DNA of 64,000 nucleotides from assembly GCA_019454045.1 (NCBI GenBank), contig SKCR01001870.1:62001-126000 (forward strand). The letters are read 5' to 3'. Position 1 is the first letter of the stretch. Each line of letters opens with the position of its first letter. The notes beneath the pieces are model-generated. The model was not told the DNA's origin. It saw nothing but the letters and a program-made list of their open reading frames with translations, and did no database searches. The position numbers and the translations under genes are program-made. This DNA comes from Zanthoxylum bungeanum. Taxonomy: Eukaryota; Streptophyta; Magnoliopsida; Sapindales; Rutaceae. This document shows positions 4,110-27,646 of this stretch, piece after piece.

Positions 4110-4359
4110 TATGGAACATAGTCAACTCTTAAATTGACCGCCATTTTTTAATGGCATTGAATATTTACATTGGAAGGTTCACATGAAAGCGTTCTTTAAG
4201 TCCTTAGATGAGAGGGTCTGGATGACTGTTGAACATGGGTGGAAACTTCCCGTTGTTGTTGTTGATTGGGTCAAGACAAATTAACCTGGACCAAGGACAA
4301 ATTTGATGCTAGCAATAGGAACAGAAAGGTAATTAATGTCATACGTGGTGATGTGTGTT
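4110..4359 (+). pseudogene. copia gag N-terminus, split by the Athila insertion
   Basis: An ATG at 4110 opens a copia gag with the landmarks PPFFNGIEYLHWKVHMKAFF and, after a frameshift near 4270, TWTKDKFDASNRNRKVIN. A stop occurs eight codons in. The frame is cut at 4359 by the Athila element and resumes at 29794, with GTGTT duplicated on both sides. The type resembles gag of SIRE/Tork-like plant copia elements. Non-functional. Confidence 0.75.
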
Positions 4360-4762
4360 TGATCGGTGCATAGTCGCACGCGTATAACGCAAGCGCACGT
4401 ACCGTTCAAGTAGTATAAAAAGTATCGATCCCACGAGGACTTAATACATAACCTATTAATTTTTATGAGGCCAAATGATTACTAGTATCTAACAGATGGA
4501 TTTTTTGTAAATTGGAATGGTGACTTACAAATTAACTTAAAAACAGGTAAATAAAAATTGCGTGAAAGTAGATTATTGAAAATTCAATTTTATAAAACTA
4601 TCCAGGGTTGTGATTTATTCCAATATTATTTAAAGATGAAGTGGTTATCTTATAGTTGGGTAATATATTGATTTACTAACCTGGAACACTAAATTATGTA
4701 AAAGCCTCTTCCGATGGTCAATTACAAATACCCAGTATAACCTAATTGAACCATATGTCTAT

Positions 4763-7700
4763 TGTAACATCCCAGATTTTTGGGACTGTTCTAGAAGATT
4801 CCCGGAATGATATTATAGTCTCAGAGCATGATGATAATGAAGAATAAGAGTTCAGGTGATGATATATGGGTTGGAATAATAGATTATGAATTTTCGTCGC
4901 GTCGGAAAACGCGTGGGATCAAAGGTTAGTTACACGATTTTCGTAAAACGCGTAAAGTTTACATTTTTGGTCATAGAATTAACAAACGAACTCCGATCGA
5001 GTTTATTTTTGAACCATCAGACTCGATTTTCTGAGACGAATAACTTTCGTGTTGAACACGTTTCGAAAATCACGCCAGAAGAGCTTCAAAAGTGATGATT
5101 TCCGAAATTACCTTTAGAGGTTGGGGCATTTTAGTAAAATCTGGTATAAGATATTTTTTTATTATTATTTATTATTTTTATTTCTTTTTTTCAGTAATTA
5201 CATGAAACAAAAAAAGAAAGAAAATAAAAAAAATAAAAAAAATGGGAGGGAAGCCGTCGCACGCGTGAGGAGAGGGGAGAGGACGCCGACGAGTTTCCGG
5301 CGACTGTCCGGCGACGCACCGGTGGCGCTAGCTTCGTCTGGCGATGGCGAGTCGAGTGATGGCCGGCGATGGTCCAAAAGGCACCGGAAACGGCGGGAAA
5401 TTGAGGAGATACGCGCGCGGCTTGGGTCGTCTGATCCCGGCTCGTCGCTTCGAACCACGGCCCGAGCCACATACCAAATCAAAGTTTAAGAATGATAAAT
5501 TGTCAAAGTAAGCACATAAGTACACAAGCGGGTTAGTATGCATGGAGAGATAAGTAAGTTAGTATATGGTAGGTATGTGTTTTACGTAAAAGTATCTTGA
5601 TGTATGTTTAAGGGAATAGAGTATATGTGCATAAGAACATATGTAAATGAGATCTTGAGCATGTAAGTATATAAATAAGTATGACAATCAAGATAGTTTT
5701 GTGTCAGCATAGAGTTTGCATGTACATGTATATATATAAGATTATGCATTTGTTATGATTGTGTTATTGTTAATAAGAGATCATGAGTATAGTGTAGTTT
5801 GTAAGTGAATGAAATAAGTGGTCTATGAATATTATAAGTTTCGAAGTAATACAAATAGCTGAGAAGAATATGAGAATTTTGTGTTTGTGTTTAATAAAAA
5901 TTTTGTATAGCAGTAAATGTATGTGTGTGATGGATTGATTTGGAAAATGAATTCAGTGTATTAGTGTGGATTGATGTAATCTTAGTAGCGTATATATTGA
6001 GCTTGAGCATGATGAATAAGCGTATAAGGAATAGAAACATATATCATTAGTTTATAGGAGTGCACGAACATATGCATATACACGCATCATAATATAAGAA
6101 TGACCTTTGAAATTCAAGTGTTTCAAAGAAGAATTTCATATACTTTTAAAAGAATAGTTTCAAATGTATTCGAAAGAAAAGTATTTCAGAAAAAAAGTTT
6201 CTTATAGTTTTAAGATATAGATTTTGGTTCTTTGTTTTCGGGGCATGAGGTAAAACCTCACCCCAGTATGTAACTTGAGATACATTTGGAATTGACGGAT
6301 TCAGAGACATGTGAACATGTGAAGAGTCAGGATGACGGCTTAGGTTCATGTACCTGTACTCTAATGGTGGTTATATCCAGTTGAGTCGTTTTCCTGGACA
6401 TGGGGCTCTACGTTCAGTCGAGTCATTTTCCTGGGCGTAGGGCACCACCAGTTTCAGAGATGCCCAATTGAGTCGTTTTCCTAGGCATAGAGCACACCCA
6501 GTTGAGTCGTTTTCCTGGGTGTAGTGAGACGTCCAGTTGAGTCGGTTTCCTGGACGTAGAGCAGTTTTCAATTTTCAGATTTTCAGTTCTCAGATTTCAA
6601 TCTTTCAGTACAAAATTTCAGAAACATAATATAAAAAAATCAGTTTTTCAGTTTCAGTTATAGTTGTTTCAGAGATGCCCAGTCGAGTCGTTTTCCTGGG
6701 CATAGAATAGTTTTCCAATTCTCATATTTCAAATTTTCATACAGCTTCCAGATTTTTAGTACATAGTTTTCAAAAGTCAGACTTTAGTTAACAGATTTCA
6801 GAAACCCGCTCCTAGAAACAGTTTTCGGAAACCAGAGATTTAAGCGTGATTTCAGACAGATAAGTTTTTTAACAGGTTTTCAGAAAGAGTTTTCAGAGAA
6901 CAGTTCTCAGAGAGAAGATTTTAGAAACAGTTTTCAAGAAACAGAACTTAGAAAGACACGTTTGGTAAAAGCATAAGAGAATAGCTTTTAGAAAAAGTTT
7001 TCGGAAAATGGTTTTCAGAAAAGTTTTCGGAAAACATATTCCGTAAGCATGCCATAATTAAAGTATAAAGAAGCTTATAAGTTATGCATATATTCTAGTT
7101 AATATTTGAGATTGCATATAGATGATACTAATGCATGAATATAAGATTCTGTATACATGTTTATATAGTTAATATTAGTTCACTGGATGTTTAATAGAAA
7201 GAATGTGTTAATATACCGATTTGATGATATTTCAAGAAAGTGAAAGAAGAAAAGTTTTATAGTTGTCTGACCTAGACTAGCACAGAGTGTACAGGAAAGT
7301 AAAGAGAAATTTGAGTAACGCAGCAAAAAGCGTGTTAGATTTTGACATGTTAGTTAATGATAAAGAAACTTGATGTAATTAATATTGGATGTTTGTTGAT
7401 ATAAGTAGTAAAAGAAATTTAAGGTATGTGAGCGACGTGGTTAAAGGATCAGTAACAAGAAATATATTTGCATGGTCATATAGACAACTCCTATTAACAC
7501 AGAAACTGAATTCTGACTTTGTTTATGTTTGTGTGTTCAAGTTGTGAGCATGATTACTTACTGAGTCATTATGACTCACACCACATTAATTGTTAGTTTT
7601 ACAGGTTAGAAGTTGACGTACTGATTCCGCAGAATTCAGTGAAGACTTTGAAGACAATGGATCGCCCCAATTACAGTCGAGGAAGTCATTGAGTCCTGGG

Positions 7701-8036
7701 TCGAGTTATGGTCCTCACGACCTTTGTATATGTACTTGTATTTGCATTTGTATTTATATTTCGTATGTATGAGTTATGTAATAGTATAGTTTTATTTTGA
7801 GTTCTGGCCGGAGGCCAAGTATTTACATTTGTTCATTGAGTTTAGGCCTGAGACCTTGATGATGATGGTATACATGTTGAGTTTGTTTGGACAGGTTGTC
7901 TTAGGGTGCTGGCTATAAGCCAGGTTGCATGATGTTCTGCATATATCATGCCGAAATTTCGTCAGATTCAGAGGAATATGGAGATGGATTCTCCTGTCTC
8001 CTGCCGATAGCATCCTGGCCTAGGCGGGATGTTACA
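4763..8036 (+). mobile_element. solo LTR, probably of a Tekay/Del-like gypsy element
   Basis: The insert starts TGTAACATCCC and ends GGGATGTTACA, an 11-bp inverted terminus, and is flanked by TCTAT at 4758-4762 and 8037-8041. The uninterrupted Athila LTR at 28180 lacks it, which fixes both ends. No gag or pol frame is present; the 3.27-kb length and termini fit a long chromovirus LTR left after recombination. A GC-rich block (5240-5470) gives several open frames by composition only. Orientation is uncertain. Confidence 0.85.
6378..6705. repeat. dispersed short repeat CAGTTGAGTCGTTTTCCTGG
   Basis: Six copies of a 20-base motif of this form occur at about 6379, 6415, 6462, 6490, 6531 and 6680, separated by 28-150 bases of AT-rich sequence. 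They sit inside the solo LTR. An open frame across them on the minus strand is a repeat artefact. Confidence 0.8.
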
Positions 8037-9685
8037 TCTATGTCAACCAAATTACCTGAATTCATTAAGATTAAGTTCCAATTATGGCTACCCCCGCCCG
8101 ACAGGTATATTCCTATCGTGTAAGGAAATCTATTAAAGGGTTATCTATCATCAAGGAAGATCGTGGGCTATTGAGTCTAAGATCTTAAACTTAAAATCCC
8201 TATGTCTAGTTCATTTTAACTTTACCTAATCAATTTTATTAGTGGCCAGTTAATAAAAAGCATTAAGATTAAGACTCAATAAATAAATTTTTATATTACC
8301 CAAACTATAATCTAACCCCTTATAAACCAGTGATATTGAAATTCATCACAACCCCAGATAACGGACTTAGCTACGACACATATCTAAGGCTAGTAAAAAC
8401 TTAAATAAAATAAAAGACATAAAGTAAATGCTGAAAATTTAAATAAAGTAAATGCTGGAAATTAAAAGTACAATAAAAGAAAATGTTGGGGTTAGAGGAT
8501 CCACTTTTAATATTTCAAAATTAGAAATCTCCCTTATTCTCAATGTTTACCGATTAATTAACCAGACCATAAAGGCGGTAATTTCATTTATCCAAAGTCC
8601 AACCGACCATATAGGTGGTAATAAAATCATATAAACCAGCCATTTAGGCGGTAACAAGGTTAGCACATAAACCGACCATATAGGCGGAAACTAAGTTCAA
8701 AAATATAAAACCGACCATATAGGCGGTAAATAAGGTTGTCACATAAACCGGCCATATAGGCGGAAACTAATTAATCCAAATTTTAATTAAAATAAAGGAG
8801 ATTAATCTAATTTATCATATTAAAAGTTTTACCTCTTCACCCCAGCCGAATGAGATTACCTCATCATGCTGTAAAAGAAAACACACAAAATTTTATTAAA
8901 CAAATTAAAAAAAAATACAAGAAAACTTAAATAATATACAAGACACTTTCCTTTAGATTTTCATGGAGAAACTCCTCCAAAGAAAGCATGAAAAAATTAC
9001 AAAGTTAAGCTTGGTATTTATAGAAAAATCTAAAGGCTTCCACCAATTTCTCCACAAATTGCTCCACCAAAAGAAAGCATGAAAAAATTGCAAAGTTAAG
9101 CTTTGTATTTATAGGAAAATCTAAAGGCTTCCACCAATTTCTCCACAAATTGCTCTACCAATAGCTCCACCAAACATGGCACCAAACATGGAACCAAACA
9201 TGCAAACATGTTTGGTGGAAGTTTGACAATTTTTATTTTTATTTTTATTAATTTTATTTTACATTGTGAAAATGACTATAGTAAATACACAAAATATATT
9301 GGATTTTTCATCAATTTCGGCCTTCCAAACTTCAGAATTCGAAACTATTTTGACTTTAAAAGTTGTAGACCTTCGAGTTTTCTTTAATCTGCAACTTGAA
9401 TCAGCGCAATCGAACATCGGACGAAAAAGTTATGTCCAAAATACGAAAGTTGCGCAAAACTGGAAATTTTGACTGCACTTCGTGACGCGTATCGTAAATT
9501 TCCGTTTTCACCATTTTTTTGCTCCGAATTTTATCATTTTAGCCCCGAGTTGATTTCATTAAAGCCCAATACTTTATTTATCTGCAAAACACATAAAACA
9601 CATCAAAACGTTCATCAAACTCGAGAAACTAAACAAAATATTAGGTAAAATGGGCGGTAAATATTGATATATTTTCCGCTCATCA

Positions 9686-10954: not shown

Positions 10955-10974
10955 AGACATTGTCCCCAATGTCT
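10955..10974. promoter_or_regulatory. palindrome after the accessory ORFs
   Basis: AGACATTGTCCCCAATGTCT can form an eight-base stem with a four-base loop. It directly abuts the stop of the LOG frame and is followed by the purine-rich run. A closely similar palindrome plus G-run is a recurrent landmark after the env-like gene of Athila elements, so it marks the normal end of the coding region. Confidence 0.65.
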
Positions 10975-11714
10975 TAAAAAGTATAAGAAGAGTTTTGAGG
11001 ATAGTACTTGGTTAGCTGAAATACAGAAAACGAAAGATTGAGATCCAGATTTATCTTACGCTTCTTACCACGATTGTCCTCGGTCCATTTGATCTTGGAA
11101 AGGATAGGGTCAATTTGTGGTTCAAAGGCTAAGATTTGATCAAGTAAATCCGGAGCAGTTTTGGCAGTGAAGAGGAGTTCTTTCATAGGTTTTGTCACGA
11201 ACCCATTTATCCGGGCATCATCAAGAAACACACAAAGAAAATCATAAAATCCCTCAATGTTAAACAGCCCAATCAGTTTCTGGTGTATGTTCAAGTTCGC
11301 CCAAGATAGCACTATAAAAATTTCCTCCAATGTGCCCAAGCCTCATGACAAAGCAATAAAAGCATCAGCATGATTTATCATTTCCACCAGTCGCTCGGAC
11401 ATTCCTGGTATGATCAGTTCCTCTCCGTTTGATGGACCTATCAGATTCGCCTCTGCCAAGGGTTTTGGGATGATTCCAAGAACTGGATTGCCTCTTTCCT
11501 GTACGGCCTTTGAAATGATCCTCATTAGTCCAAGATTGCCTCCACCGTATATCAAGTGCATATTCTTCTTAGCTATGACTCGACCCAATTCATGTGCTGC
11601 CTCTATGTATTGTGGGTTAGTACCAACACTAGTATTGTAAAACACACAGATGTTTTCAACTCGTCTCCTTGAAGTGGCTTCCATTTTTTTTATCTCAAAT
11701 CTGGATGTCTTCAA
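10974..11714 (-). pseudogene. intronless LOG-type cytokinin riboside monophosphate phosphoribohydrolase, one stop
   Basis: LOG enzymes release active cytokinin bases from their ribotides in the cytosol. The minus-strand frame shows the family in order: ENICVFYNTSVGTNPQY (residues 20-36), LIYGGGNLGLM (54-64), VLGIIPKPLAEANLIG (78-93), GMSERLVEM (104-112), ADAFIAL (116-122), then GTLEEI and WANLNIHQKLIGLFNIEGFYD. The arginine of the usual HxRK motif and both glutamates of GTxEE are kept, but HxRK reads SERL and the PGGYGT motif reads S-stop-GLGT, one TGA at 11343-11345 in an otherwise continuous frame. Start is 11714 or the inner ATG at 11684. The C-terminus has an LDLNL run resembling an EAR motif. 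Plant LOG genes have several introns; none is present. It lies where Athila carries env. Confidence 0.85.
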
Positions 11715-11942
11715 GAGTGCAATGATGAGTTGAATTTATAACACCTGAAAATGGTGAGTAATAATAATAGCACTAGTACCTTCCAAATGACAATTATTAG
11801 TTAAACAGTACAATAAATCGTGATAGTCAAAAAATTATGGATCTTGTCGGAGAAAATAAAAGAAAATAACAAAACAAATCACAATTATTAGGAAAAGAGA
11901 AAGAGATATAATATCTATAAATATTTACAGCTTAATTGACGT

Positions 11943-12431
11943 CTATGCGTCAGGGAAAAACTTCCCATCCAATTTTCTTATAAATTGGCAAACGGGGTCT
12001 TTTTGAGTCAGATTCCCGAGACTTAACTGTTGTCTTTCTCTTAGAAATTGTGTATGTAATTTGCGAATGACTATATGAACATATCCACTGGGATGCGTCT
12101 CAAGAGTTGAAGATATATCATCTAAAGACTCATTACTCAAGCCATCCCTAATGAATTTAATTTTATCTTCGCGATTATCAGACACCATTCCTAAAGAACG
12201 ACAATGAGTATTGCAATTCCAGCGTGCACATTTGAAACAAACACCCATTTGCTTATCTCTACGTTTCTTAGCATATGTGCTTTTTCCAAAACCAGGCAAA
12301 TAAGAAGTACAAGAATTAGAATACTCACCTACTAATCGAACCCGTGCTTCGATTACCCAACGAATGTCAGTAAGAATACATTTGATCATTAGTAGTCTCA
12401 TCCGTTCCAAGCGAGCTTTGTAAACTTTCAT
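11943..12431 (-). CDS. cysteine-rich basic protein resembling carla-like virus nucleic-acid-binding proteins
   Basis: This 162-codon frame is uninterrupted, unlike gag and pol of the same element. Residues 46-60 hold a glycine then GKSTYAKKRRDK, a basic patch, followed by cysteines 65, 68, 73 and 77 (CX2CX4CX3C, with His76), then a GMVSDN stretch and IKFIRDGLSNE at 91-101. The order basic patch, zinc-finger-like cysteines, short loop and FIxxG segment is that of the small cysteine-rich proteins encoded near the 3' end of carlavirus-type genomes, which bind nucleic acid and often weaken RNA silencing. The tail (102-162) is unrelated to anything I recognise. It follows integrase by about 190 bases and precedes the LOG frame by about 230. 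The family match is by eye; function is inference. Confidence 0.5.
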   Translation of the reverse strand: MKVYKARLERMRLLMIKCILTDIRWVIEARVRLVGEYSNSCTSYLPGFGKSTYAKKRRDKQMGVCFKCARWNCNTHCRSLGMVSDNREDKIKFIRDGLSNESLDDISSTLETHPSGYVHIVIRKLHTQFLRERQQLSLGNLTQKDPVCQFIRKLDGKFFPDA

Positions 12432-12554
12432 CAGAGATTTTTGAGGGAAAGAAGGAAATTACTTGTGAAGATTTGCGAGAGCTTCTTCCATCTTAATCTG
12501 TAAAAACTAAACACACAAAAAATAAATCACATAAAATCACAATATATACACAAA

Positions 12555-12619: not shown

Positions 12620-13897
12620 TTAAGCTAGATCTGAAAGTGTGACACTTTCTTTTTGTCGCTTAAATGATTCTCCCCAGTAGTGCTTGACACGCTGACTGTT
12701 AACCTTGAATGTGTTGTTGATGTTGGGATCCAGTAACTCAACCGCTCCATGTGGTAAAACCTGAGTGATCACAAATGGACCTGACCATCTTGATTTTAAC
12801 TTTCCAGGGAACAGTTTCAGCCTCGAGTTGTACAACAACACCTGTTGCCTTGGTTCCAACTATCTGTGCACTATTTTTCGGTCATGCCATTTCTCGGTCT
12901 TTTCCTTGTACAATCTGGCATTCTCATAAGCCTGTAAACGAAATTCCTCCAATTCATTGAGTTGGTGAAGTCTATTCTCTCATGCAGCTTGTAGATCAAG
13001 ATTCAGCTTCTTCAGTGCCTAATACGCCTTGTGTTCAAGCTCAACTGGCAGATGGCACGCTTTCCCAAACACCAATCGATATGGGGACATACCAATGGGT
13101 GTCTTGTAAGATGTACGGTATGCCCATAATGCGTCATCTAGTTTTGTAGACCAATCCCTCCTTGTTGATCTAACATGTTCTCTCCAAGATTCTTTTGATT
13201 TCCCTGTTTGAAACCTCAACCTGTCCATTTGACTGTGGATGGTAGGCAGTGGTAACCTTGTGAGTAACTCCGTATTTAAATAGAAGTGCATCAAAGTATA
13301 TGTTGTAGAAATGAGAGCCACCATCGCTGATGATTGCACGAGGTGTTCCGAACCGAGTGAAGATGTTCTTTTTCAGGAATTTGATCAATATTTTTGAATC
13401 ATTGGACGGCAGTGCAATTGCTTCGACCCATTTGGAGACGTAGTCTACAGCAACCAGGATGTACAGGTTTCCAAATTGGAACAAAGGGTCCCATGAAATC
13501 AATACCCCACACATCGAATATTTCCAATTCCAGAATACTTTGCAATGGTCCTTCATTTCTCCTCGAAATATCCCCGTTCCTCTGGCACCTGTCACATTGA
13601 AGAGCAAAAAGATAAGCATCTTAAAAAGTGTGGGCCAGAACAAACCTGATTGAAGAACTTTTGCTGCAGTTTTGTCCCCGCTGAAGTGTCCGCCATATGG
13701 TGATGAATGACAGTGCTGCAAAACACTGTTGACCTCCTCTTGTGGAACACACCGTCTCAATAATTGATCAGCACAGCGTTTGAATAGGTATGGCTCATCC
13801 CAAACATAGTGTTTGACTTCTTTGAAAAACTTCTTCCGTTGCTGAGTTGTCTATTCCAACGGCCATTTTCCTGACACAATGTAGTTGACATAGTCAG
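12620..13897 (-). pseudogene. Athila integrase
   Basis: From 13760 the minus strand gives the zinc region ([20 protein letters not shown]), then the DDE core pieces [27 protein letters not shown] and [20 protein letters not shown], and after frameshifts near 13600 and 13190 the part [28 protein letters not shown]. The C-terminal part (12859-12620) reads VLLYNSRLKLFPGKLKSRWSGPF, the Athila/Tat integrase tail. The segment 13897-13764 links to RNase H but is cut off from it by the Tat insertion. At least two frameshifts; inactive. Confidence 0.9.
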
Positions 13898-13902
13898 CAT
13901 AC

Positions 13903-14483
13903 TGTATGGGCCAAATTTGGTCCAAGGGTAAAACTGTCTTTCACCTTAAGCCCATCAGCATGTTAGGCCCGAAAATAAGGACCAAAGCCCAAAGAATTAT
14001 GTATTATTTGATTACAATTAAATCATAAACTAATAAAAAGCACTGACCACTCCACCTAACTCTAGCACTAAACCCCACCACTCCACTTAACCTAATCTCT
14101 AGCACTAATCCTCACTTACTCCAAAACCATTACCAAATACACCAACATTAGATCATGTTTTATCTATAAATATGAAAGGAATACGGGAAGAATTCATTCA
14201 AGTCTCATTTCTCTCACCCTAATACTTCATGCTCTCAATCCTTAATCCCCTCATATATACACGGCTCTCACGGCCAAACAAAGGAAGTAGAGGTAATATT
14301 CAACCTTGCTTTCCCACTTTACAAATTTATTTCGTGCCACTGACTTGAGCGTCGGAGTTCCCCCGGCACCCACCACACCGGTGGGTAGTCTGCTCCCGCT
14401 CACTCTACCTTTGTCTTGCAGGATTGCTAGTGCCCAACTTACAAATTCTGATTGAGGACCCTTGGCGAATTCCGGAGTCCAAA
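13903..14483 (+). repeat. Tat 5' LTR
   Basis: The LTR begins TGTATGGGCC and ends GGAGTCCAAA, the last CA having mutated compared with GGAGTCCACA in the 3' copy. It is matched along its length by 23050-23630. Confidence 0.95.
14164..14172 (+). promoter_or_regulatory. TATA box of Tat LTR
   Basis: CTATAAATA lies about 320 bases before the LTR end, and the same sequence is present at the matching place in the 3' LTR near 23310. This is the likely core promoter for element RNA. Confidence 0.6.
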
Positions 14484-14484
14484 A

Positions 14485-14503
14485 TTTGGCGCCCACCGTG
14501 GGG
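14485..14503 (+). promoter_or_regulatory. Tat primer-binding site
   Basis: TTTGGCGCCCACCGTGGGG directly follows the 5' LTR. This sequence is the usual primer-binding site of Tat-lineage plant elements. Confidence 0.85.
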
Positions 14504-14565
14504 CCCTAGCAATAATTTGCAGACAAAAGCTTTCCACCCTACAAACACTCACCGCTTAGTCACTC

Positions 14566-15765
14566 ATGACTTCAAGCAATGAACAAAAACACCTGATCCA
14601 GTGGCATCACAATTGGCCATGCTACAAGACAGATTGAAAGCTTTGGAAGAAGAGAATTTTACCTTTCGTAGTTCCAACATAAACCTCCAAAAATAGTTGG
14701 AACTACTTTCATCACCCACGCGGCTTCATAATACATCAGAACAACACAACAACCGGATCATTCCAGCTAACCTTCAAGGAGCATTCGATGAAACAACAGA
14801 CGACGTTCCATCAAATGGTGAGAACCAGAGGAACTTACCAAGTTCACCAGTCAACCAAGCCCAGCAAATTGTCATCACAATGAGAAAGGAAATGAAACAA
14901 TTTAAAGAAGCAATTATGTCCAGTCTACCAGGGGTGAAACTCCCAATGAAGAAGAGTAGAGCTGGAACCATTTCAGATACCCATTTCATTGAGACGATAA
15001 CATCTGTTGAGCTACCACGGAAGTTCAGCCCACCAGACATGAAGTTATACGATGGATCCACTGACCCAGACGACCATGTCATCCATTATAAATACAAAAT
15101 GATGTCAACAGGCTTAGCTCCTCATCAATGGGAAGCTGGAATGTGCAGAGGATTTGGAGAAACTTTGGGTGGTACAGCTCTTACATGGTTCATCAACCTA
15201 CCATACAGATCCATCAAATCTTATCAACAATTAGCAGACAAATTTGTTGAACATTTCTCCAGCTCTTGCAAACTTGAAAAAACTACTGATGATCTTAGTG
15301 CCATCCTACAACGGAGGGGAGAATCGTTGCGAAGCTATGTTGTTCGATTCAACAAAGAAAGAATAACAATTCCAGACATTCATCAACCAACAGCTGTGGA
15401 GGCTTTCAGGAACGGGTTACTTTGTGAAAGTGGACTCTACAAAAAGCTGACCAAGTTCCGGTGCTACACGATGGACCAGGTTATGGCTCGAGCCCAAGTC
15501 GAAATCAGGTGGGAAGAAGATAAAAGGAATAAAAGGAAAGACATTTCCTCCAACATGCAAAGCGAAAGAACAACCCATTCTACCAAACGACATAAAGAAT
15601 TTACAAATATGATGCCTAAGCGTCATTCGGAGAAATGGAACCACCCAAGGAAAGAACATCAGCCCCTCCAAAAAGGTTTTGATCAAAGACCTCCACCATA
15701 CAGGGCTCGGGAAATAATTCCGATGGAAAAACCCAGACTCCTTTGCCAAAATACGAGATAAAGAA
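14566..15765 (+). pseudogene. Tat gag, fused by deletion to integrase
   Basis: Gag probably begins at the ATG at 14566 (MTSSNEQ). A frameshift and a stop at 14694 separate this from a 354-residue open stretch (14697-15761). That stretch has a predicted coiled-coil start upstream (MLQDRLKALEEENF) and the retrotransposon-gag domain: LYDGSTDPDDHVIHY, GGTALTWFINLPYRSIKSY, FVEHFSSSCK, RRGESLRSYVVRFN, AFRNGL. Past about 15760 the sequence jumps directly into integrase. The zinc knuckle expected at the gag C-terminus is absent, consistent with the deletion junction lying before it. Confidence 0.85.
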
Positions 15766-16485
15766 GTTCAAACATTTGTCTGGAAAAACATCATGTGTCG
15801 TTTCGGCATTCCCAAGGAGATTGTAACAGATAATGGCTCCCAGTTTATTAGCCGACATTTTCAAGACTTTTGTAAAAATTGGGGGATCAAGTTAAGTTTT
15901 TCAACCTCACGCTTTCCACAAGCTAATGGGCAAGCCGAGTCTTCTAACAAGACACTTTTGAATACTTTGAAGAAAAGATTGGAGAAGGCGAAAGGATCAT
16001 GGGCAGACGAGTTTCCTGGAGTATTGTGGTCCTACAGAACGACCATCCGTTCTTCCACTGGAGAAACTCCTTTCTCTTTGGCATTTGGAACAGAGACAGT
16101 AATTCTAATCGAAGAAACCATTCCTTCTCTACGCTACCAGTACGCTGGTGATGAGGCAAATCAACAGTTGATGTATATGAATCTAGACACAATCGACGAA
16201 AGACGAGAAAAGGCAACCATATGACTTGCATCTCATCGACAAAGAATGGCGAGATATTTTAACAAGAATGAGAGTAGCAGAACTTTTCAAGAAGGAGATT
16301 GGGTACTACGAAAGGTTTTCCAAAATACCAAGGAAATTGGAGATGGGAAATTGGGGTCAAACTGGGAAGGTCCATACGTCATCACTAAAGTTATTGGGCA
16401 TGGAGCCTACAAATTACAAACCAAAGAGGGAAAACAAGTTCACAACAGCTGGAATGCAATACACCTTAAACGATTCTACCGGTAA
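15766..16485 (+). pseudogene. Tat integrase, 3' part
   Basis: The frame enters integrase in mid-core (FVWKNIMCRFGIPKEIVTDNG), continues through FPQANGQAESSNKTLLNTLKKRL, WSYRTTIRSSTGETPFSLAFG and, after a frameshift near 16225, the C-terminal module GDWVLRKVFQ and WEGPYVITKVIGHGAYKL up to a stop at 16485. The HHCC region and first catalytic aspartate are missing because of the deletion that also removed protease, RT and RNase H. It cannot be catalytic. Confidence 0.9.
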
Positions 16486-16625
16486 TGATTACATACTATT
16501 GTTTAAATTTAACGTTATGCTTGTGTAATTTGATTCGACGTATAAAAAAAATATAGTCAAAAGTTTTTATCATTGATCAAACAAAATATTAAGTACAAGA
16601 AAGTCAATTATACAATTAAACGTTT

Positions 16626-18842
16626 TCAAGCTACATCCGGGGCAGGAACATCTTGAACTGGTTCAGCAGCGACAATCTCCATCCGGCTGGCATCTTCTTT
16701 TTCCTTCCCCTGACCTTCTATTTTCTTCTCCACAACTTCAATCGCCCTCTCCTCACCTTCAGGGCCAATCAGCATTTCAGATTCTTTGCTCTCCTCCCCA
16801 ACCTTCTTCGACTCTATCTCCTCACCCTTCCCCTCTACACCTTCTTCGTTTGTTGAAGAATGCCCTGATATGAAATGATCATACTCTTGAATCCATTTTT
16901 GTGGCTCCCAAGAACCAGTTCTTCCTTCGATGAAGTCCTTCATCAAGTCACTCCTCTCTTTCATCATGGATTCAAGAGCAATCCCTTCAATCTGCTCGAC
17001 AAGGGCACTATTCTCCTTCTTTACGTTATCAAAGCCCGCCTTATAATTTTCAATCATCACTTCAGAAATCTCCTTCTCCATCTTGAGTGTGGCCTTCGCT
17101 TCCACCAGCTCTTTCGCCAATTCCAGATTCTCCTGATTCTTCTTCTCAAAAGAAGTCTTCATTTCAGCCATCTCCTTCCTCATAATCCCCATCGACTTCT
17201 CCATATCTTTATGCTTCCTCAGCATCAACTCCGCTTGGCGCTGCATGAAAAGACTGCACTCCATGGCCTGAAAAAGTATATACGACTAAGCATCGTTCGA
17301 CAAACTGTTATAGATTTCATGTTTAAATTTATTTACCTGGTAATTCAATGCAGCCGACTTCTTCATTGCTTCGACAGCCCCAATTTGAGTGAGCCTTCGA
17401 TCATCTTCTTCCAACAGGAGGTCCTTAATAAAAGGATTAAGACTCGACGGGTCTGAAATTGCAGTCGACCCTATGGGGATTTTGACAGTGATATTCTCAA
17501 AATCATCTTCAACTTCAGCTGCCTTCCTCTTTCCTCCTTTCACAACAATTCCAGTCGACTTCTCCTTGATTGGTAGAATTTCAGTCGACTGAGGCTGAGG
17601 CAATTCAGGAACACTCTCCTCTGGTTCCTTCGTTTTCAGCTTCCTGGCCTTCTTTCTACTCTTCAATTCATCAATTGAAGCAACCTTAACTGGTCTCGAC
17701 ATTATGTCCCCTGCGCATAAAATTCTCTTGGAGTTAAAGGCTTTATAAAAAACACCCCCCCGTAGAGTACATGAATCGACCAGGTAGAATGGATGACTTC
17801 CAATACTTGATTACAAAGTGCCAAAGGCGTAGATATACCTTCAGATTCGAAGATTTCTTTCCACACTAGTGTCTTCCTTAGTCTTCTTTCTACCAAAATA
17901 ATCCTCCTCCAATCTCTTTCTTCGACAGGAAGAGTTGTAAGAGCTTGGGTATTAGAAAGGATTTTGGGGGTTCTGTCGAATGACCTGTTTTTGAAAGGAC
18001 CTGCAAGACATATAACAAGTTGATTAGCTACATACGACAATCAGTATTACATTACATCATTATATAGAAATTATCGATACTCACTAATTAAACTCCAGTA
18101 CTCAGAGACACGACCCATTCCAGTCGACCCAAAAACCCCCGCATTCCTCACGAAGAAGTAATCAGACTGCCAATTACCCCTATCGTTTGTCGGTAAACCC
18201 ATTATTAACTGTTCTCTCTTTCGACGAAGATACAAAGTATACCTCCCTTTCTCGGTTAAATGCTCTTTCAAGTAGTATGAATATGCGATGTCCTTCACTT
18301 CAAAAAATAAACCTTTTTCGAAAGATAAGCACTCAATCGACAACAGAATCCTCCAAGCATTAGGCATCAACTGCGAAGGAGCAATCCCATAGTGATCTAA
18401 AACCTCCCAAGCTAACCTTGGAATAGGAAACCTGAGACCATCAGAAAATGGCCGTACATAAAATCCAATCCACCCGTCAACTTTGTAGTCTATCCTTTCA
18501 GTCGGCAAAGGAACCCTTAATTCCATCGACTTTGGAAATCTATATCTACACCTAAGCTCCATTAGCAGACTTTCTGTCATTTGACTTGCTGGGTTTTTTG
18601 TTAATAAATTGGTCGGTTCACTTGTGCTAACCGGACCACTCGACTCCCCTATTGCTGCTATTCCTGATGGGAATCGCAAGCATAGGAACTTGGCTCGACA
18701 AAACAGTAACTGGTCCTTCTTCGAAGAATTCTTGACGCGCCCATTCCCTCATTGATGCCTCTTCAGTGGGTTCACTCGACGACTCTTCTACATATGTATC
18801 AATTTGCTTGCCTAAGCTATCTAAGGAGTCTCCACTCGACAT
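16626..18842 (-). pseudogene. Tat/Retand antisense gene (putative gypsy-type transposon protein), spliced
   Basis: The minus strand holds a multi-exon gene. Exon 1 starts at 18842 (MSSGDSLDSLGKQ) and runs, with one frameshift near 18650, into GWIGFYVRPFSDGLRFPIP and YGIAPSQLMPNAWRILLSIE, the hallmark of the putative gypsy-type transposon domain (Pfam Transposase_28). A donor GTGAGT near 18082 pairs with acceptor CTTGCAG near 18002. The next exon reads to about 17705; the following frame starts at 17702. A donor CCAG/GTAAAT near 17338 pairs with TTTTTCAG near 17268. The last exon (to 16626) is a coiled coil rich in Lys and Glu. Antisense genes of this type are known in Tat-lineage elements; their role is not established. 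Confidence 0.8.
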
Positions 18843-19117
18843 TTTTTCACTAATTAGCTAATAAACAAAAATTTCCTAGGGATTATGTTTCCTAAAGATC
18901 AAACTCACTACCAATTCTCCAAACAAGATTCCACCAAACTAACTTAGTTTCAAGAGATCAAACTACGTAAATTGGCTTAGAAAAGTTTGAATCTACTCTA
19001 GAACATTGAAAGGAAATGAAGAACATGAAGAAGGTTATGAAGAGTACCTTAGAAAATTTGAAGCATTCTCCCAACTCGCTGATAAGTGTGAATGAAGCAA
19101 ATGAACCTACGAAGCCA

Positions 19118-19128
19118 CTCTTATACTA
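19118..19128 (-). promoter_or_regulatory. candidate TATA box for the antisense gene
   Basis: On the minus strand AGTAGTATAAGAG lies about 280 bases before the ATG at 18842, and a G-box-like CCACGTGTC lies about 80 bases further upstream near 19197-19206. Position and spacing fit a promoter between the tandem array and the antisense gene. Prediction only. Confidence 0.45.
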
Positions 19129-19219
19129 CTTTGAGGCGGTTTATTTTTCCGCCCAAAAGACGCCTCGTATTTGCCGTTAGGTTTTGCTCTATTTAATGAC
19201 ACGTGGAAAACCTAGAGAT

Positions 19220-20610
19220 CTTCACCATCTCCTGACTCATCTCGAGTCAAGTAAACTCCTGAACCACCGTTTGGTTCAGTCGACAAAGGACATTCCCCTG
19301 GACTCATGTCGAGTCAATTGAACTCCTGAACCACCGTTTGGTTCAGTCGACAAGGGACATTCCCCTGGACTCATGTCGAGTCAAGTAAACTCCTGAACCA
19401 CCGTTTGGTTCAGTCGACAAGGGACATTCCCCTGGACTCATGTCGAGTCAAGTAAACTCCTGAACCACCGTTTGGTTCAGTCGACAAGGGACATTCCCCT
19501 GGACTCATGTCGAGTCAATTGGACTCCTGAACCACCGTTTGGTTCAGTCGACAAGGGACATTCCCCTGGACTCATGTCGAGTCAAGTAAACTCCTGAACC
19601 AGTATTCGGTTCAGTCGACCAAGGGACATTCCCCAGGACTCTTCTCGAGTCAAGTAAAATCCTGAACCACCGTTTGGTTCAGTCACAAAGGACATTCCCC
19701 TAGACTCATGTCGAGTCAATTGAACTCTGAACCACCGTTTGGTTCAGTCGACAAGGGACATTCCCCTGGACTCATGTCGAGTCAAGTAAACTCCTGAACC
19801 ACCGTTTGGTTCAGTCGACAAGGGACATTCCCCTGGACTCATTTCGAGTCAAGTAAACTCCTGAACCACCGTTTGGTTCAGTCGACAAGGGAAATTCCCC
19901 TGGACTCATGTCGAGTCAAGTAAACTCCTGAACCACCGTTTGGTTCAGTCGACAAAGGACATTCCCCTGGACTCGTGTCGAGTCAATTTGACTCCTGAAC
20001 CACCGTTTGGTTCAGTCGACAAGGGACATTCCCCTGGACTCATGTCGAGTCAGTAAACTCTTGAACCACCGTTTGGTTCAGTCGACAAGGGAGTCAAGTA
20101 AACTCCTGAACCACCGTTTGGTTCAGTCGACAAGGGACATTCCCCTAGACTCATGTCGAGTCAAGTAAACTCCTGAACCACCATTTGGTTCAGTCGACAA
20201 GGGACATTCCCCTGGACTCATGTCGAGTCAAGTAAACTCCTGAACCACCGTTTGGTTCAGTCGACAAGGGACATTCCCCTGGACTCATGTCGAGTCAATT
20301 GGACTCATGAAACCACCGTTTGGTTCAGTCGACAAGGGACATTCCCCTGGACTCATGTCGAGTCAAGTAAACTCCTGAACCAGTATTCGGTTCAGTCGAC
20401 CAAGGGACATTCCCCAGGACTCTTGTCGAGTCAAGTAAAATCCTGAACCACCGTTTGGTTCAAATTGACAAAGGGACATTCCCCTGGACTCATGTCGAGT
20501 CAAGTAAACTCCTGAACCAGTATTCGGTTCAGTCGACCAAGGGACATTCCCCAGGACTCTTGTCGAGTCAAGTAAACTCCTGAACCACCGTTTGGTTCAG
20601 TCGACAAGGG
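19220..20610. repeat. 67-bp tandem array in Tat 3' region
   Basis: About twenty head-to-tail units of roughly 67 bp are present, with a few truncated or variant units (for example GAACCAGTATTCGGTTC in place of GAACCACCGTTTGGTTC). Each unit contains two inverted repeats, GAACC-N7-GGTTC and GACTC-N5-GAGTC, and a GTCGAC. Remnant units follow the solo LTR at 22735-22860. Tandem arrays in this position are characteristic of Tat-lineage elements and can seed satellites. Confidence 0.95.
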
Positions 20611-20899
20611 TGATGAGTGGTATTTATATCAATATTTCCCACTCATTTAACTTAATATTTTGTATAGTTTCTTGAGTTTTATGAATGTTTTGATGTGTTT
20701 TATTGTTATTTTGCAGATAAATAAAGTTTGGACAGCACTGGAGGCAATTTGGGGCAAAACTGGACAAAAATACGTCAACAGGGATATTTTCGTCTTTTGC
20801 GCGTCGCGACGCTGGAACACTGCGCGCCGCGACGCCCAGCGTGAGCCGAATCTGCTAACATGCGCCTGGTCAACGGTCAACAATTTGAGAAGTTTTGAC

Positions 20900-21290
20900 T
20901 TTGCTAAAATGCGCCGTGCCACGTGTCACCATCACAACGAATCCGCTAACGTGCGCCGTGCCACGTGTCAACATCATATGCTGCCGACACTCTGACTTGA
21001 CACGTGTCGCCTCGTCATCAGCCATGTCATCGGTCAACAAGTCAACCTTGCCACGTGTGTGCCACATCATCAGACACATCAGCAAGTCAACCGAGTCAAC
21101 GAGCCACGTCAGCCTAAGCCAATCAGAACTTGACACGTGTCGCCACGTGTCGAAATCCTATTGTGCCGACAATTGCAGCGCCACGTCATCGCCACGTCAT
21201 CAATGACGTCATCACAATAATTGAGAATTAGCCGCCTTGACACGTGTCGCGTGTACAGTCAGCCGCCATGCCACGTGTCGTCTCCTCAGC
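20900..21290 (+). promoter_or_regulatory. dense array of bZIP-type (CACGTG / TGACGTCA) sites
   Basis: Eight CACGTG cores occur at about 20920, 20962, 21001, 21052, 21134, 21144, 21241 and 21272, most as CACGTGTC, the abscisic-acid-response form. A TGACGTCA palindrome lies at 21204-21211 with further CCACGTCA copies around it. They precede a TATA box at about 21365, where an LTR enhancer is expected. Confidence 0.75.
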
Positions 21291-21364
21291 GTCCACGACG
21301 TCGACATCCAGCATCGCGACGCTGAACTCCTTGGCGTCGCGACGCTGGAATAGTGAAAAATTGC

Positions 21365-21373
21365 CTATAAATT
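21365..21373 (+). promoter_or_regulatory. TATA box of the solo LTR
   Basis: CTATAAATT lies 90 bases after the last CACGTG core and is followed by a CT-rich initiator-like stretch (TTTCTCTCTCTTG) near 21400. This fits a plant core promoter. Confidence 0.6.
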
Positions 21374-22739
21374 CAGCGCGAAATTTCAGAATTTTGTACA
21401 CCTTTCTCTCTCTTGATTTCTCTCTCTAGAGAGAGTTTCTCTCTCTAGAATTTTTATTTTTATTTTTAGTTTTTTTTATTTTTAGTTTTAGTTTTGTAAT
21501 ACTTTAATTACGTTTTGTAATAGTAATTTAATTTTTACTTTTTACAGTTTTTACTATTCACCATGATGTTGTAACTTTTTCAGCTAGGGTGAAAGGTAAT
21601 TCTTTTACTGTTACTATTTAGATTAATCTCCCTTAAAAATAATATATTCACTATTTAAAATATTGACTTATAAGGAATACCGCTATATTGGTCGGTTGGT
21701 AATGTAATTTTAATCTGTTTTAAACCTGACTAATCAAGATACCGCCAGACTGGTCGGTTGGTAAATTTATTTTTGGTTCCGCCTTAATGGCTGGTTGGAC
21801 TTAATTTGACTTAATCAGGATACCGCCAGAATGGTCGGTTGGTAAATTTAACACAAGTTTATATATTATTTTATGGGAGATATCTAAATTAGTAGTAGTA
21901 AAAGTAATTCCTTTTACCTTAGCATTTTATTTTATTGTAATTTATTTTTCAGCTTTTTACTTTATGTCTTTTACTTTTATGTTTTTACTAGTCCTAGTTA
22001 TGTGTTAATTAATTAGGGGTTGTGATGACTTTTAATATCACCGGTTTATAAGGGATTATTTTATAGTTGGGTAATTTACAGGTTTATTTATTAAGTCTCA
22101 AGCTTAATGCTTCTTGTTGTCTGATTACCAATAAGATTGATATGGTAGATCTAAAATGAACTAGACATAGGGATTTTAGGTTTCAGCCTTAGACTTAATA
22201 GCCCACGATCTTCCTTGAGGATAGATAACCCTTTAATAGATTTCCTTACAGGATAGGAATATACCTGTTGGGCGGGGGTAATCATAATTGGAACTTAGAC
22301 TTAATGAATCCAGGTAATGTGATTGACATAGGAATATGGTTCAATTGGGTTATACTGGGTATTTGTGTCTGACCATCGACAGAGGCTTACACATAATTTA
22401 GTGTTCCAGGTTAGTAAACTGATTTATTACACAAATATAAAATAATCACTTCATCTTTTAAATGATATTAAAAGAAATCACAACCTTAGATTTTTGTGTC
22501 TATTATTTTCCTTAGTATTTTCTTTTATCTTTTTATTTATTTATTTAGCAAATCTTCAATCAACCAAATCAATCAAGCAATCAATTCCATTCTCCCTTTT
22601 AATTAGATATTTGTAATTAAATAGATTCAATAATTAATAACAACAGTAGGAATTAAGTCCTCGTGGGATCGATATTTTTATACTACTTGAACGATACGTG
22701 CGCTTGCGTTATACGTGTGTGTTTACGCCGGTCAAAGGG

Positions 22740-23049
22740 ACATTCCCCTGGACTCATGTCGAGTCAAGCATACTCCTGAACTACCGTTTGATTCAGTCGA
22801 CAAGGAACATTCCCCTGGACTCATGAACTCCTGAAATTCTATTTCAGTTCGGTCAAAAACACGTACTTCATGACCCTAGATAAATCAAGAAGCTAAGATG
22901 CATGCAAACAGAAACCTATATTTTTGTATATATTTTGATACGACATTTGGCAGAAGGTAATACACTCTTACGCTCTTTTTTCACATACTACACGGATAAA
23001 TATACTCTATAAAACAAAAATTCTTTGATTTAGAGAGTAAGGGACAAAC
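22740..23049 (+). other. end of the tandem array and Tat pre-LTR region
   Basis: Two decayed 67-bp units follow the solo LTR up to about 22860. The remainder is AT-rich with a purine-rich run (AGAGAGTAAGGGACAAAC) immediately before the 3' LTR, the likely polypurine tract. No gene is seen. Confidence 0.6.
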
Positions 23050-23630
23050 TGTATGGGCCAAATTTGGTCCAAGGGTAAAACTGTCTTTCACCTTAAGCCC
23101 ATCAGCATGTTAGGCCCGAAAATAAGGACCAAAGCCCAAAGAATTATGTATTATTTGATTACAAATTAAATCATAAACTAATAAAAAGCATGACCACTCC
23201 ACCTAACTCTAGCACTAAACCCCACCACTCCACTTAACCTAATTCTAGCACTAATCCTCACTTACTCCAAAACCATTACCAAATACACCAACATTAGATC
23301 ATGTTTTATCTATAAATATGAAAAGAATACGGGAAGAATTCATTCAAGTCTCATTTCTCTCACCCTAATACTTCATGCTCTCAATCCTTAAACCTCTCAT
23401 ATATTACACGGCTCTCACAGCAAAACAAAGGAAGTAGAGGTAATATTCAACCTTGCTTTCCCACTTTACAAATTTATTTCGTGCCACTGACTTGAGCGTC
23501 GGAGTGCCCCCGGCACCCACCACACCGGTGGGTAGTCTGCTCCCGCTCACTCTACCTTTGTCTTGCAGGATTGCTAGTGCCCAACTTACAAATTCTGATT
23601 GGGGACCCTTGGTGAATTCCGGAGTCCACA
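23050..23630 (+). repeat. Tat 3' LTR
   Basis: This is the second copy of the 581-bp LTR, TGTATGGGCC to GGAGTCCACA, followed by the target duplication CATAC. Single-base and small indel differences from the 5' copy number about a dozen by eye. Confidence 0.95.
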
Positions 23631-23635
23631 CATAC

Positions 23636-25371
23636 CAAGGGACATCGTGCTATTTTATGGCAAACAGCTATTCATCTAGAAAAGTTTCTTTGATTGACAG
23701 TTCTTTGCCGGCTGTTTCTCCTTTCTCGAGCCTCGATAAATGATCTGCCACTTGGTTTTTCGTCCCTTTCCTGTCTCGAATCTCCACGTCAAATTCTTAC
23801 AGAAGAAGTATCCAACGGATCAATCTGGGTTTGGCATCTTTATTTGTGATGAGATATTTGATTGTTGAATGATCTGTGTAGACCACCACTTTGGGACCCA
23901 GTAGATAGGAGCGAAATTTGTCAAAAGCGAACACAACTGCAAGCAGCTCCTTTTCAGTGGTTGTGTAATTGAGTTGAGCTTCATTCAGAGTTCTGCTGGA
24001 ATAGTAAAGGGCATGGAAAATATTTGCTTTGCATTGTCCCAAAACTGCACCTACAATAAAATCACTAGCATCGCACATCACCTCAAATGGAAGGGTCCAA
24101 TCTGGTGCCACTATGATAGGAGCAGAAATCAGCTTTTGTTTTAAGATCTCAAAAGCTTCTTGGCATTCTCTGGTGAAGTTGAAAGGCACATCCTTCTCCA
24201 GAAGATTGCAAAGAGTTTTTGCAATCTTGGAAAAGTCTTTGATAAATCTCCTGTAAAAACCTGCATGTCCAAGAAAACTTTGAATCCCTTTGACAGATGT
24301 TGGTGGAGGTAGTTTTTCAATTGTCTCGATCTTTGCTTTGTCTACCTCGATCCCCTTTTGTGAGATCTGATGTCTAAGAACGATGCCTTCATGCACCATG
24401 AAGTGGCATTTTTCCCAATTGAGTACCAGGTTTGTGTTTTCACACCTTTGTAACACATGTTCCAGATTTTGCAAGCAGTGGTCAAAAGAGTCTCCAAACA
24501 CAGAGAAGTCATCCATAAAAACCTCCATACTCTGCTCCATCATGTCTGAGAAAATGGCCATCATGCACCACTAAAATGTGGCTGGGGCATTACATAATCC
24601 AAATAGCATCCTGCGAAAAGCAAAAGTACCATAGAGACATGTAAAGGTGGTTTTCTCCTGATCTTCTGGGGCGATGGCAATCTGATTGTATCCTGAGTAT
24701 CCATCCAGAAAGCAATAGAACTCATGTCCCGCCAATCTTTCCATCATCTGATCAATGAATGACAGCAGAAAATGATTATTCCTTGTTGCTTTGTTCAACT
24801 TCCGATAGTCCATGCATACTCTTCATCCAGTCACGGTTCTTGTTGGAATCAGCTCGTTCTTTTCATTGGTGACAACAGTAATTCCTCCTTTCTTCGGCAC
24901 ACACTGTATAGGACTCACCCAACTGCTGTCTGAGATGGGGTAAATGATGCCAGCATCCAACCATTTGATGATTTCTTTCTTCACAACCTCCTTCATGACT
25001 GGATTGAGTCTCCGTTGATGCTCCACCGTGGGTTTGTACTCGTCATTCATCAGGATTTTGTGCATACAAAATGATGGACTAATTCCTCGAATATATGTTA
25101 TAGTCCAGCCAATGGCCTTCTTATGTTCCCGTAACACTCTTAGCGACTTTTCTTCCTGCTCCAATGTTAATGACGGAGAAATAATAACAGGTAATTCAGA
25201 AGAGTTTCCAAGAAATGCATACCTGAGATAGCTCGGAAGTAACTTCAACTCCAACTGCGGTGGTTCTTCAATTGATGACTTTGTTCGATCTTTCTTCAGG
25301 AGTTCAAGGCTTTGGACTAGTGGTTCTGATTTGAAGTGAAACGGCTTGTCCAGATAGCTGATACATTCCAT
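23636..25371 (-). pseudogene. Athila reverse transcriptase and RNase H
   Basis: The minus strand from 25371 shows the RT start (VSPIQCVPKKGGI, 24920-24880), CMDYRKLN, YCFLDGYSGYNQIAI, TCLYGTFAFRRMLFGLCNAPATF and the catalytic [10 protein letters not shown] near 24520, then the thumb ([16 protein letters not shown]) and RNase H ([44 protein letters not shown]). Stops near 24822, 24570 and 23796 break the frame. Past 23796 the tail VADHLSRLE reaches the Tat insertion; the linker to integrase continues at 13897. Confidence 0.93.
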
Positions 25372-25962: not shown

Positions 25963-27646
25963 TTATTCCGTCAATGCTACTGTCTCGTAATCTCCCAATC
26001 TCCATTTTCGTGAAAGAATGTCTTTCATGAATTTGACATAACTGGGCATTTCTTCCAATGCTTCTGCGAATGGGATGTTGATATGTAGCTTTTTGAACAC
26101 CTCCATGAATCGAGCAAACTTCTTGTCCAATTTGTTTTTCTGAAGACGCTGAAGAAAAGGTGGAGGTGGAGTGATTTGATTTTTTTCATTTACTTCTTTT
26201 TCCTCCATATGTTGCTCTGCATCTTTTGGAACTTCCTCAATTGTTGCTTTGATTCCAACATCTTTGTTGATTTCAATACCGCTTTTCAAGGTAATGGCTT
26301 GACATTGCTTCTTCTCTCGGTTCCTTTGATTTGGTTCTATGTTGCTGGGAAGATTTCCTTGCGGTCTGTAACTCTGAGCATTGGCCGGTTGTCCCATTTG
26401 ATTTTCTAGTGCTTTAATAGAAGCTAAATGGCTTTGATTCAATGCTACTTGATTTTGAACCATAGCTGCTAAAGCATCATATTTTACTTCTTGCTTCTTC
26501 AACTGGGCCAGCACTTATGTTATTCATGGTTCTTTTTCATGCTCCTGGCTTTGTTGTTGGAATCCTGGTGGTGGGTTGTTCTTTTGCCCTGAATTGTTGC
26601 TCCATGAAAAATTGGGATGATTCATCCACCCTGGGTTGTAGGTGTTGGAATATGGATTGTTCCCATGTCTATTGAAATTTTTGACATAATTCACCATCTC
26701 TTCTTGTTGAACTGGTTCTAATGCTCCTCCAAATGATGAACTTGTGGATCCGGTAATGTTCACAACTTGCGTGCTAAGCATTTCCAGACATTTGCATATC
26801 TGATCCAACCTGGTATTCACTGCTGTGTTGGCTCCAACTTCATAAATTCCTGCAATTCTTTGAATCATGCTCCTATCTGTTGGCCACAATGAATTGTTGT
26901 TAGTCATTTCTTCGATTAAGTCTCAGGCTTGATATTCTCCTTTTGCCATCAAAGCTCCTCCAGCAGCAGCATCAATTGTGGTTCTCATCAATCCAGAAAG
27001 TCCATTATAGAAATTTTGGACTTGTAGCCATTTTGCAATCTCATGGTGAGGGCATTTTCTAAGAAATCCTTGTACCTTTCCCAAGCTTCGTAGAGAGATT
27101 CTGAGTCATGTTGCACAAAGGATGTGATGTCATTCCTTAACTTGGCTGTTATGGCTGGTGGAAAGTACTTTGCAAGGAATTTGGTGGCTAGATTGTTCCA
27201 AGTTATGATGGAACCTGCTGGTAGTGAATGTAGCCAAGCTTTTGTTCTGTCTTTCAAGGAATAAGGGAAAACTCGCAGTCTCATAGCTTCTTCAGCTCCT
27301 CGATTGTAATTAAAAGTGCCACAAACTTCCATAAGTTGCTGATGTGGGCATTAGGATCTTCAGTTGTATTCCCCCCAAACTGAACTGACTGCTGAATCAT
27401 CTGGATGCATGTTTTGATGTCACATGCATTTGCTGGTAAGAGAGGAAGTAAAATACAGGAAATGAAGCCGTCAACCACCAGAATGGTTCTGTCTCGAATG
27501 AGAATTGGTGGTGCAACCTCCAAAGGTTCAGGTTCCATGTTAACAATTCCTTCTTGGCCTTCTCGCATTTCCCTTCTCAACTGTCTGATAGTTCTTTCAA
27601 TCTCTGGGTCAAGCGGACGGACTTCAAAGCTTCTGGTTCGTCTCAT
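25963..27646 (-). pseudogene. Athila gag
   Basis: The likely start is the ATG at 27646 (MRRTRSFEVRPLDPE), after the leader. The capsid core follows a frameshift near 27330: RVFPYSLKDRTKAWLHSLPAGSI, FLAKYFPPAITAKLRNDI, ESLYEAWERYKDFL, all Athila gag landmarks. Further sections (26907-26524 and 26514-25963) include a glutamine and asparagine-rich part with NPYSNTYNPGWMNHPNF and a polyproline run before LQRLQKNKLDKKFARFMEVFKKL. Stops and frameshifts at about 26985, 26910 and 26520 break it. Confidence 0.9.

Follow-up and report, generated by a model that had tools for sequence, protein, structure and literature searches.

A LOG-type gene under purifying selection in sampled copies of an Athila-type retrotransposon family of Zanthoxylum bungeanum, with three base-site residues replaced

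To our knowledge, few cases are known of transposon genes that act on the hormone or nucleotide metabolism of their host. In 2011, Steinbauerova et al. (Genetica 139:1543) reportedly found, in Athila-like elements, an additional ORF resembling LOGL4, which is said to take a 3' position in the Athila lineage, as does the gene discussed here. As LOG-like ORFs of Athila-like elements have thus reportedly been in print since 2011, the headline of the original prediction for this locus, that a LOG-type cytokinin-activating enzyme inside a retrotransposon would be a new type of accessory function, is not itself new. Plant LTR elements with LOG/YgdH domains are also on record in the accessible part of PMC9289625, which names Citrus sinensis, C. 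clementina and, unfiltered, Populus trichocarpa. What we did not meet in a literature search is the selection, the abundance, the L028 type of element, the NABP-like neighbour and the changed pocket that we describe below. That search covered titles and the starts of abstracts, with subscription papers mostly outside it, and brought up no work on LOG-carrying elements that treats selection, enzyme activity or an NABP partner; the main texts of PMC7264820 and PMC6317226 contain neither LOG nor cytokinin, the former no carlavirus and the latter no YgdH.

The locus lies in a stretch of 64,000 nucleotides, the whole of which we call the window. Profile matches and ORFs place there an element with the Ty3/gypsy order of LTRs, gag, RT-RNaseH and integrase, whose 3' LTR is set off from integrase by extra ORFs (Table 1). 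Its Athila name comes from this layout together with known features of that lineage, and we take it as a putative member of the Athila lineage. The window element is dead and twice interrupted, by a nested element, which separates its RT from its integrase, and by an insert in its 3' LTR. Within the nested element lie a tandem array of units of ~67 bp (19125-20629) and two stretches (20611-20726 and 21931-22728) that are 79-84% identical to the Athila-type LTR in opposite orientation.

Table 1. Features of the Athila-type element in the window, listed from its 5' to its 3' end
Feature	Position	Strand	Basis
5' LTR, Athila-type element (2015 bp)	27779..29793	-	identity of 94.3% and 95.5% to the two 3' LTR pieces
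gag, in broken pieces	26988..27712	-	Retrotrans_gag 7.2e-15 at 26988-27332; rest ORFs
RT-RNaseH, in broken pieces	23797..25371	-	RT_RNaseH 7.1e-33 and RVT_1 6.7e-8 at 23797-24564; up to 25371 ORFs only
Nested element within pol, ~9.7 kb	13898..23628		repeat families D7, D11, D13
Repeat pair of the nested element, taken as its LTRs	13898-14481 and 23045-23628		repeat families
Integrase core	13170..13760	-	rve 5.6e-14
Integrase C-terminal part	12620..12859	-	at least 150 genome places at E 2.3e-44 or better; match to P0231
NABP-like gene, one in-frame stop in the window copy	11946..12491	-	Carla_C4 and Viral_NABP matches
Leader motif 5' of LOG: pyrimidine-rich AG|GT tract followed by TATAAATT	11733..11750	-	conserved in copies
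LOG-like gene; TGA at 11340-11342; runs on to 10974	11034..11684	-	Lysine_decarbox matches
3' LTR, first part	8037..9685	-	LTR comparison
Insert (3.3 kb) within the 3' LTR	4763..8036		junctions of the LTR pieces
3' LTR, second part	4359..4762	-	LTR comparison

That the element carries a LOG-type frame is confirmed by both halves of the window frame, which match Pfam Lysine_decarbox (1.7e-9 and 2.2e-12) and find their best PDB match in Arabidopsis At2g37210 (3.7e-24 and 7e-16), with At5g11950 also matched; scanned apart, the halves score under the NCBIfam cut-offs. At2g37210 is LOG3 in the accessible text of PMC4979012. Judged by Lysine_decarbox/LOG profiles and by relatives of the frame, the LOG domain spans the whole protein, which in these relatives is 217 aa long. 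The predicted setting was also borne out, since the intronless frame runs in gag-pol orientation with integrase upstream and the 3' LTR downstream, in the env position, although an NABP-like gene intervenes. The TGA, which breaks the PGGxGTxxE loop, proved not to be the only lesion. The loop Pro has become Ser, the Gly of CVFCG, invariant in 49/49 relatives, has become Asn, and the frame reads on downstream because the usual stop after LDLNL is lost. With a stop, a lost terminator and a lost invariant Gly, inside a broken and interrupted element, the window copy is dead in more ways than had been seen. Nor are the SERL motif and the LDLNL tail, once read as divergence of this particular frame, drift of the window copy, as both are common to its relatives.

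In the genome, searched as 3.96 Gb in 51,709 contigs, such frames are numerous. With P0001 as query, the best 150 of 70,454 first-look candidates have 87-100% identity, and 125/150 are free of stops. Part of LOG3, used as a host-type query, gave 45,604 first-look candidates; two of the best 150 (L047 and L048) are host-type LOGs with introns, and the other 148 were taken as element-type, which 10/10 of those examined are. The two match lists, which have 2 places in common, hold at least 296 distinct further places with a LOG-type frame, not all of them independent because the assembly contains duplicates (L016 and L017, for instance, have the same LOG sequence). Among the best 150 matches of a third query, L029, 5 have stops.

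Twenty ten-kilobase contexts, including L016 and L017 as one duplicate, place these frames at the same site in the element. The order integrase C-terminus, NABP, LOG recurs in 17/20, an integrase core is present in 13/20 and LTR similarity lies downstream of LOG in 18/20; L011, L018, L020 and L021 are without an integrase core and retain NABP and LOG between LTRs. These contexts belong to copies that were chosen by their LOG protein score. In one context (L024, 7323-9379), ORFs that presumably resemble a hAT-type transposase lie ~1.2 kb behind LOG, where the 3' LTR would be expected. Viral contigs, searched with P0001, the NABP alignment and P0046, contained no relative.

Selection on LOG was assessed in 40 copies, with the window copy included and L017 dropped as a duplicate; 28/40 are stop-free, and stops are carried by 12/40 copies, the window copy among them. 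Pairwise dN/dS is 0.61 at dS below 0.05 (33 pairs), 0.37 at 0.05-0.1 (77 pairs), 0.22 at 0.1-0.2 (151 pairs), 0.24 at 0.2-0.3 (206 pairs), 0.21 at 0.3-0.5 (277 pairs) and 0.12 above 0.5 (36 pairs), a fall with divergence that is expected from neutral decay of insertions on top of selection in active lineages. A codon model with kappa fixed at 1 gave omega = 0.182 over the 28 stop-free copies, with lnL -3683.3 when omega was free and -3861.0 when it was fixed at 1, a difference of 178 log units; the same comparison gave -2238.8 against -2323.7 for the 11 stop-free L028-type copies described below and -2471.0 against -2557.6 for the 17 others. Choice by protein score biases dN downward, but the window copy was not picked by score, and its summed ratio to the other 39 is 0.265; out-of-frame controls on the same 40 sequences gave 0.77 and 1.73. 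LOG is under purifying selection in the sampled copies. The frame is thus at the same place in many copies of this genome, with dN/dS well below 1, and neither a lack of the frame in other copies nor a best match to a recently duplicated host LOG without a selection signal was found, among copies that were picked, however, by LOG score.

In L023, L024 and L028, neither integrase nor NABP matches occur in the context. Of these, L028 is a whole element whose LTRs have 95.1% identity; the one long gene recognised in it is LOG, which follows a remnant containing a zinc-knuckle-like CEICDGNHPSDQC stretch. When the 40 copies are grouped by their upstream sequence, 12 belong to the L028 type, of which 11 are stop-free, and 25 do not, of which 16 are stop-free, a count that leaves out L006, L039 and the window copy. 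Among the L028-type copies the missing integrase was observed only in L023, L024 and L028, while L035 and L038, within the 12, keep an NABP match and the upstream match of L041 is partial. In a second set of 10 copies (L049-L058), all 4 L028-type copies and 2 of the 6 others are stop-free. Pooled, LOG is stop-free in 15/16 L028-type copies against 18/31 others (Fisher p 0.017), a difference that could also arise if the L028 type were younger. An upstream sequence like that of L028 without an NABP match is found in 14 copies (L023, L024, L028, L031, L034, L037, L041, L043-L045, L049, L052, L055 and L056), all except L023 with a stop-free LOG. In the copy tree, copies that have an NABP match are interspersed with copies that lack one (9 changes against a shuffle mean of 10.5; the bootstrap is not settled), which makes recombination or repeated loss likely and leaves selection within the L028 type alone not proven. 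The presence of LOG in integrase-less elements of this type suggests that it may have a role beyond plain replication.

The tree of 59 proteins places 37 element-type LOGs, drawn from 120 listed relatives (window genome, Populus, Xanthoceras and unnamed sources), in one clade with support 99/96. Grouped apart (support 96/89) are 20 host LOGs, namely 18 of the 120 listed for the LOG3 query, At5g11950 and one gene of the window genome, with 2 bacterial LOGs at the root; further plant LOG groups, outside this sample, are named in the available part of PMC11593424. The separate element-type clade indicates that the capture of LOG is old. L048, a host LOG of this genome with introns, has only 38-48% identity per exon to P0001, so a recent duplicate of that gene was not the source of the capture. 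We therefore reject a recent host LOG duplicate, on the grounds of L048 and of the separate clade, and equally a one-off capture, given the many copies at the same place and the depth of the clade. The idea of capture through an RNA step stands in part, in that the intronless frame fits it, while the loss of introns is no proof of it.

Beyond Z. bungeanum, the Populus and Xanthoceras members of the clade are known here from their protein sequences. One of them, P0045 of Populus, carries the name LOGL10, and plant genes annotated as LOG, of which it is an example, may be element genes. The Xanthoceras models P0009, P0023, P0024 and P0036 have two LOG domains, or parts of them, in tandem; a gag-like linker in P0023 found only a weak match (E 0.010) and was set aside.

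The AlphaFold2 model of P0001 (pLDDT 85.8) is matched in the PDB by 2a33, 1ydh, 5zbk and 5its, with query-normalised TM scores of 0.75-0.82 to At2g37210, At5g11950, 5zbk/5zbj and 5its/5zbl, and the element protein is predicted to have the LOG fold. In CgLOG, as far as the accessible text of PMC4979012 goes, Arg99 and Glu122 are catalytic, Met96, Lys100 and Glu121 stand at the adenine, and the adenine/prenyl site includes residues 96, 97, 100, 125 and 129 (Met, His, Lys, Glu and Trp). In this numbering, the 40 genome copies keep Arg99 (38), Glu121 (40), Glu122 (39) and Thr119 (38), and Met96 and Trp129 in 39/40 each. His97, Lys100 and Glu125, however, are Ser, Leu and Ile in 40/40; a further 10 copies have Ser/Leu/Ile in 9 cases and Ser/Leu/Thr in 1. 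The trio is kept in 120/120 listed host LOGs, which are close relatives of the LOG3 query, and in 12/120 listed relatives of the window frame, of the MHERKA type, to which the Xanthoceras models P0023, P0024 and P0036 belong. The other 108 listed relatives keep His in 9, Lys in 1 and Glu in 1, and Arg99 in 97, with Gln at this catalytic position in 10/108. As the base-site change is found in relatives beyond this genome, it is old. Plant LOGs with the same key residues differ in their main products, according to the available part of PMC11593424, so sequence alone cannot settle activity; the replaced trio argues for a changed base preference.

A leader just 5' of LOG is conserved as well. The AG|G after the pyrimidine-rich tract is kept in 38/40 copies (lost in L030 and L039) and TATAAATT, just before LOG, in 40/40; in P0010 and P0011, which share 63-64% identity with the window frame, a similar leader stretch is read as FQVYKF. 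The motif fits a splice acceptor, a TATA-like internal start, or both. Spliced envelope-class elements, reportedly described by Vicient et al. in 2001, offer a parallel for the reading as a splice acceptor.

Between integrase and LOG lies a second gene that the original prediction did not contain. Its ORF at 11943-12431 matches Carla_C4 above the cut-off (1.6e-5; 25.2 bits against 20.9 in Pfam), and its Viral_NABP match (3.3e-4) is under the cut-off, as is that of P0231, whereas P0121 and P0139 are above it. NABP-like relatives number 254 at E 0.001 or better, and the 120 listed have 55-90% identity, with names from Populus, Acer, Xanthoceras, Rhamnella and Orobanche; one cluster has 566 member sequences. 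The Rhamnella protein P0231 combines a Carla_C4 domain with an integrase end that resembles the one in the window, at 70% identity over 30 residues (E 2e-14). A virus-like, putatively nucleic-acid-binding gene thus appears as a widespread element gene, directly after integrase. In the same 12 copies its dN/dS is 0.40 against 0.28 for LOG, in a sample that leaves out the frameshifted L012, L014 and L019 as well as L010 and L021, and an intact frame, from start codon to usual stop, is found in 4/17 element copies with an NABP match, window included (L013, L016, L026 and L027). The predicted structure is poor (pLDDT 51.7), too poor for a fold search. With carlavirus nucleic-acid-binding proteins the gene shares a weak Pfam match, Carla_C4 being above cut-off in the window copy; it differs from them in its length of 182 aa in relatives and in belonging to a plant element family.

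Our main reading, to which we give a probability of roughly 60%, is that the window holds a degenerate copy of a genuine accessory gene, captured long ago as a spliced LOG, kept by selection, likely with a changed substrate, and of use to the element through the nucleotide or cytokinin state of the cell. An ancestor of the Athila-type family would have taken up the spliced copy, and active lineages, to judge from the sampled copies, would have kept it under purifying selection since then. LOG stands after the NABP-like gene and would probably have a downstream RNA of its own for translation, which either splicing into AG|GT or a start at TATAAATT would produce. Given its predicted fold and its kept catalytic Arg, Glu and phosphate loop, the protein is most likely a hydrolase that acts on the N-glycosidic bond of a nucleoside 5'-monophosphate; as three adenine/prenyl-site residues are replaced, it probably differs from host LOGs in its substrate or in the substrate that it prefers. 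The gain for the element would lie in an altered nucleotide or cytokinin state of the expressing cell, best in meristem or germ-line precursors.

The original prediction was more specific, with the element LOG making active cytokinin from iPRMP or tZRMP and so raising division or meristem fate, and hence germ-line copies. The LOG fold, the kept catalytic residues and the purifying selection agree with this, and cytokinin nucleotides may still be substrates because a greasier, more hydrophobic site might take an isopentenyl side chain; 12/120 listed relatives keep the whole trio. Its replacement in 40/40 copies, and for the most part in the 108 other listed relatives, nevertheless means that release of active cytokinin is neither supported nor established; in the accessible part of PMC4979012, which places Lys100 at the adenine site, changing crucial CgLOG residues to Ala left AMP hydrolysis almost gone, except for S19A. 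We regard release of cytokinin as possible but doubtful. Somewhat less probable still, in our view, is that the captured cytokinin enzyme has become a new phosphoribohydrolase for another substrate, such as an N6-modified AMP from RNA turnover or a nucleotide-derived immune signal, used with the NABP-like partner against host control; if that were true, L028-like elements, which have an intact LOG but no integrase or recognisable NABP gene, would owe their spread to LOG as the profitable part. The replaced pocket residues, together with the Gln in place of the catalytic Arg in 10/108 listed relatives, might also suggest that the LOG fold has a structural or nucleotide-binding role without catalysis, but with Arg kept in 38/40 and Glu in 39/40 genome copies this seems improbable.

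Two further readings deny LOG any use. It could be carried as an unused passenger, with a low dN/dS that comes only from the choice of copies, which were indeed ranked by protein score and of which 4/10 in the second set have 1 to 7 stops; against this, the ratio drops with divergence, the out-of-frame controls gave no comparably low value, and stop-free LOGs are more frequent in the L028 type, which younger age could also explain, so that we hold the passenger reading to be very improbable. A functionless processed LOG pseudogene, inserted once in one element, would suit the dead window copy with its lost stop, lost invariant Gly and TGA, but is refuted by the many copies at the same place, by selection and by the deep clade, and we give it practically no weight. 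What the family offers is a host-type enzyme gene kept by selection within an abundant element, with an active-site change that is sharp and common to the sampled copies.

Compared with known systems, the family shares with the described LOG/YgdH elements a LOG-type domain in a plant Ty3/gypsy element; selection, copy number, the LOG-only type, the NABP partner and the pocket change are described only here, set against the accessible part of PMC9289625. With plant LOG3 (At2g37210) and LOG8 (At5g11950) and with bacterial type-I LOGs, the element protein shares the fold, as predicted here, the phosphate loop and the catalytic Arg and Glu, and it differs from LOG3 (46% identity in the fold alignment) and LOG8 (40%) in being intronless and element-borne and in its replaced base-site His, Lys and Glu. 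The AlkB-type m6A demethylase of orchid Ty3/gypsy elements, as presented in the available sections of PMC9289625, is likewise a host-type enzyme that was gained and kept, although it is another enzyme in other elements, and its activity was tested in vitro.
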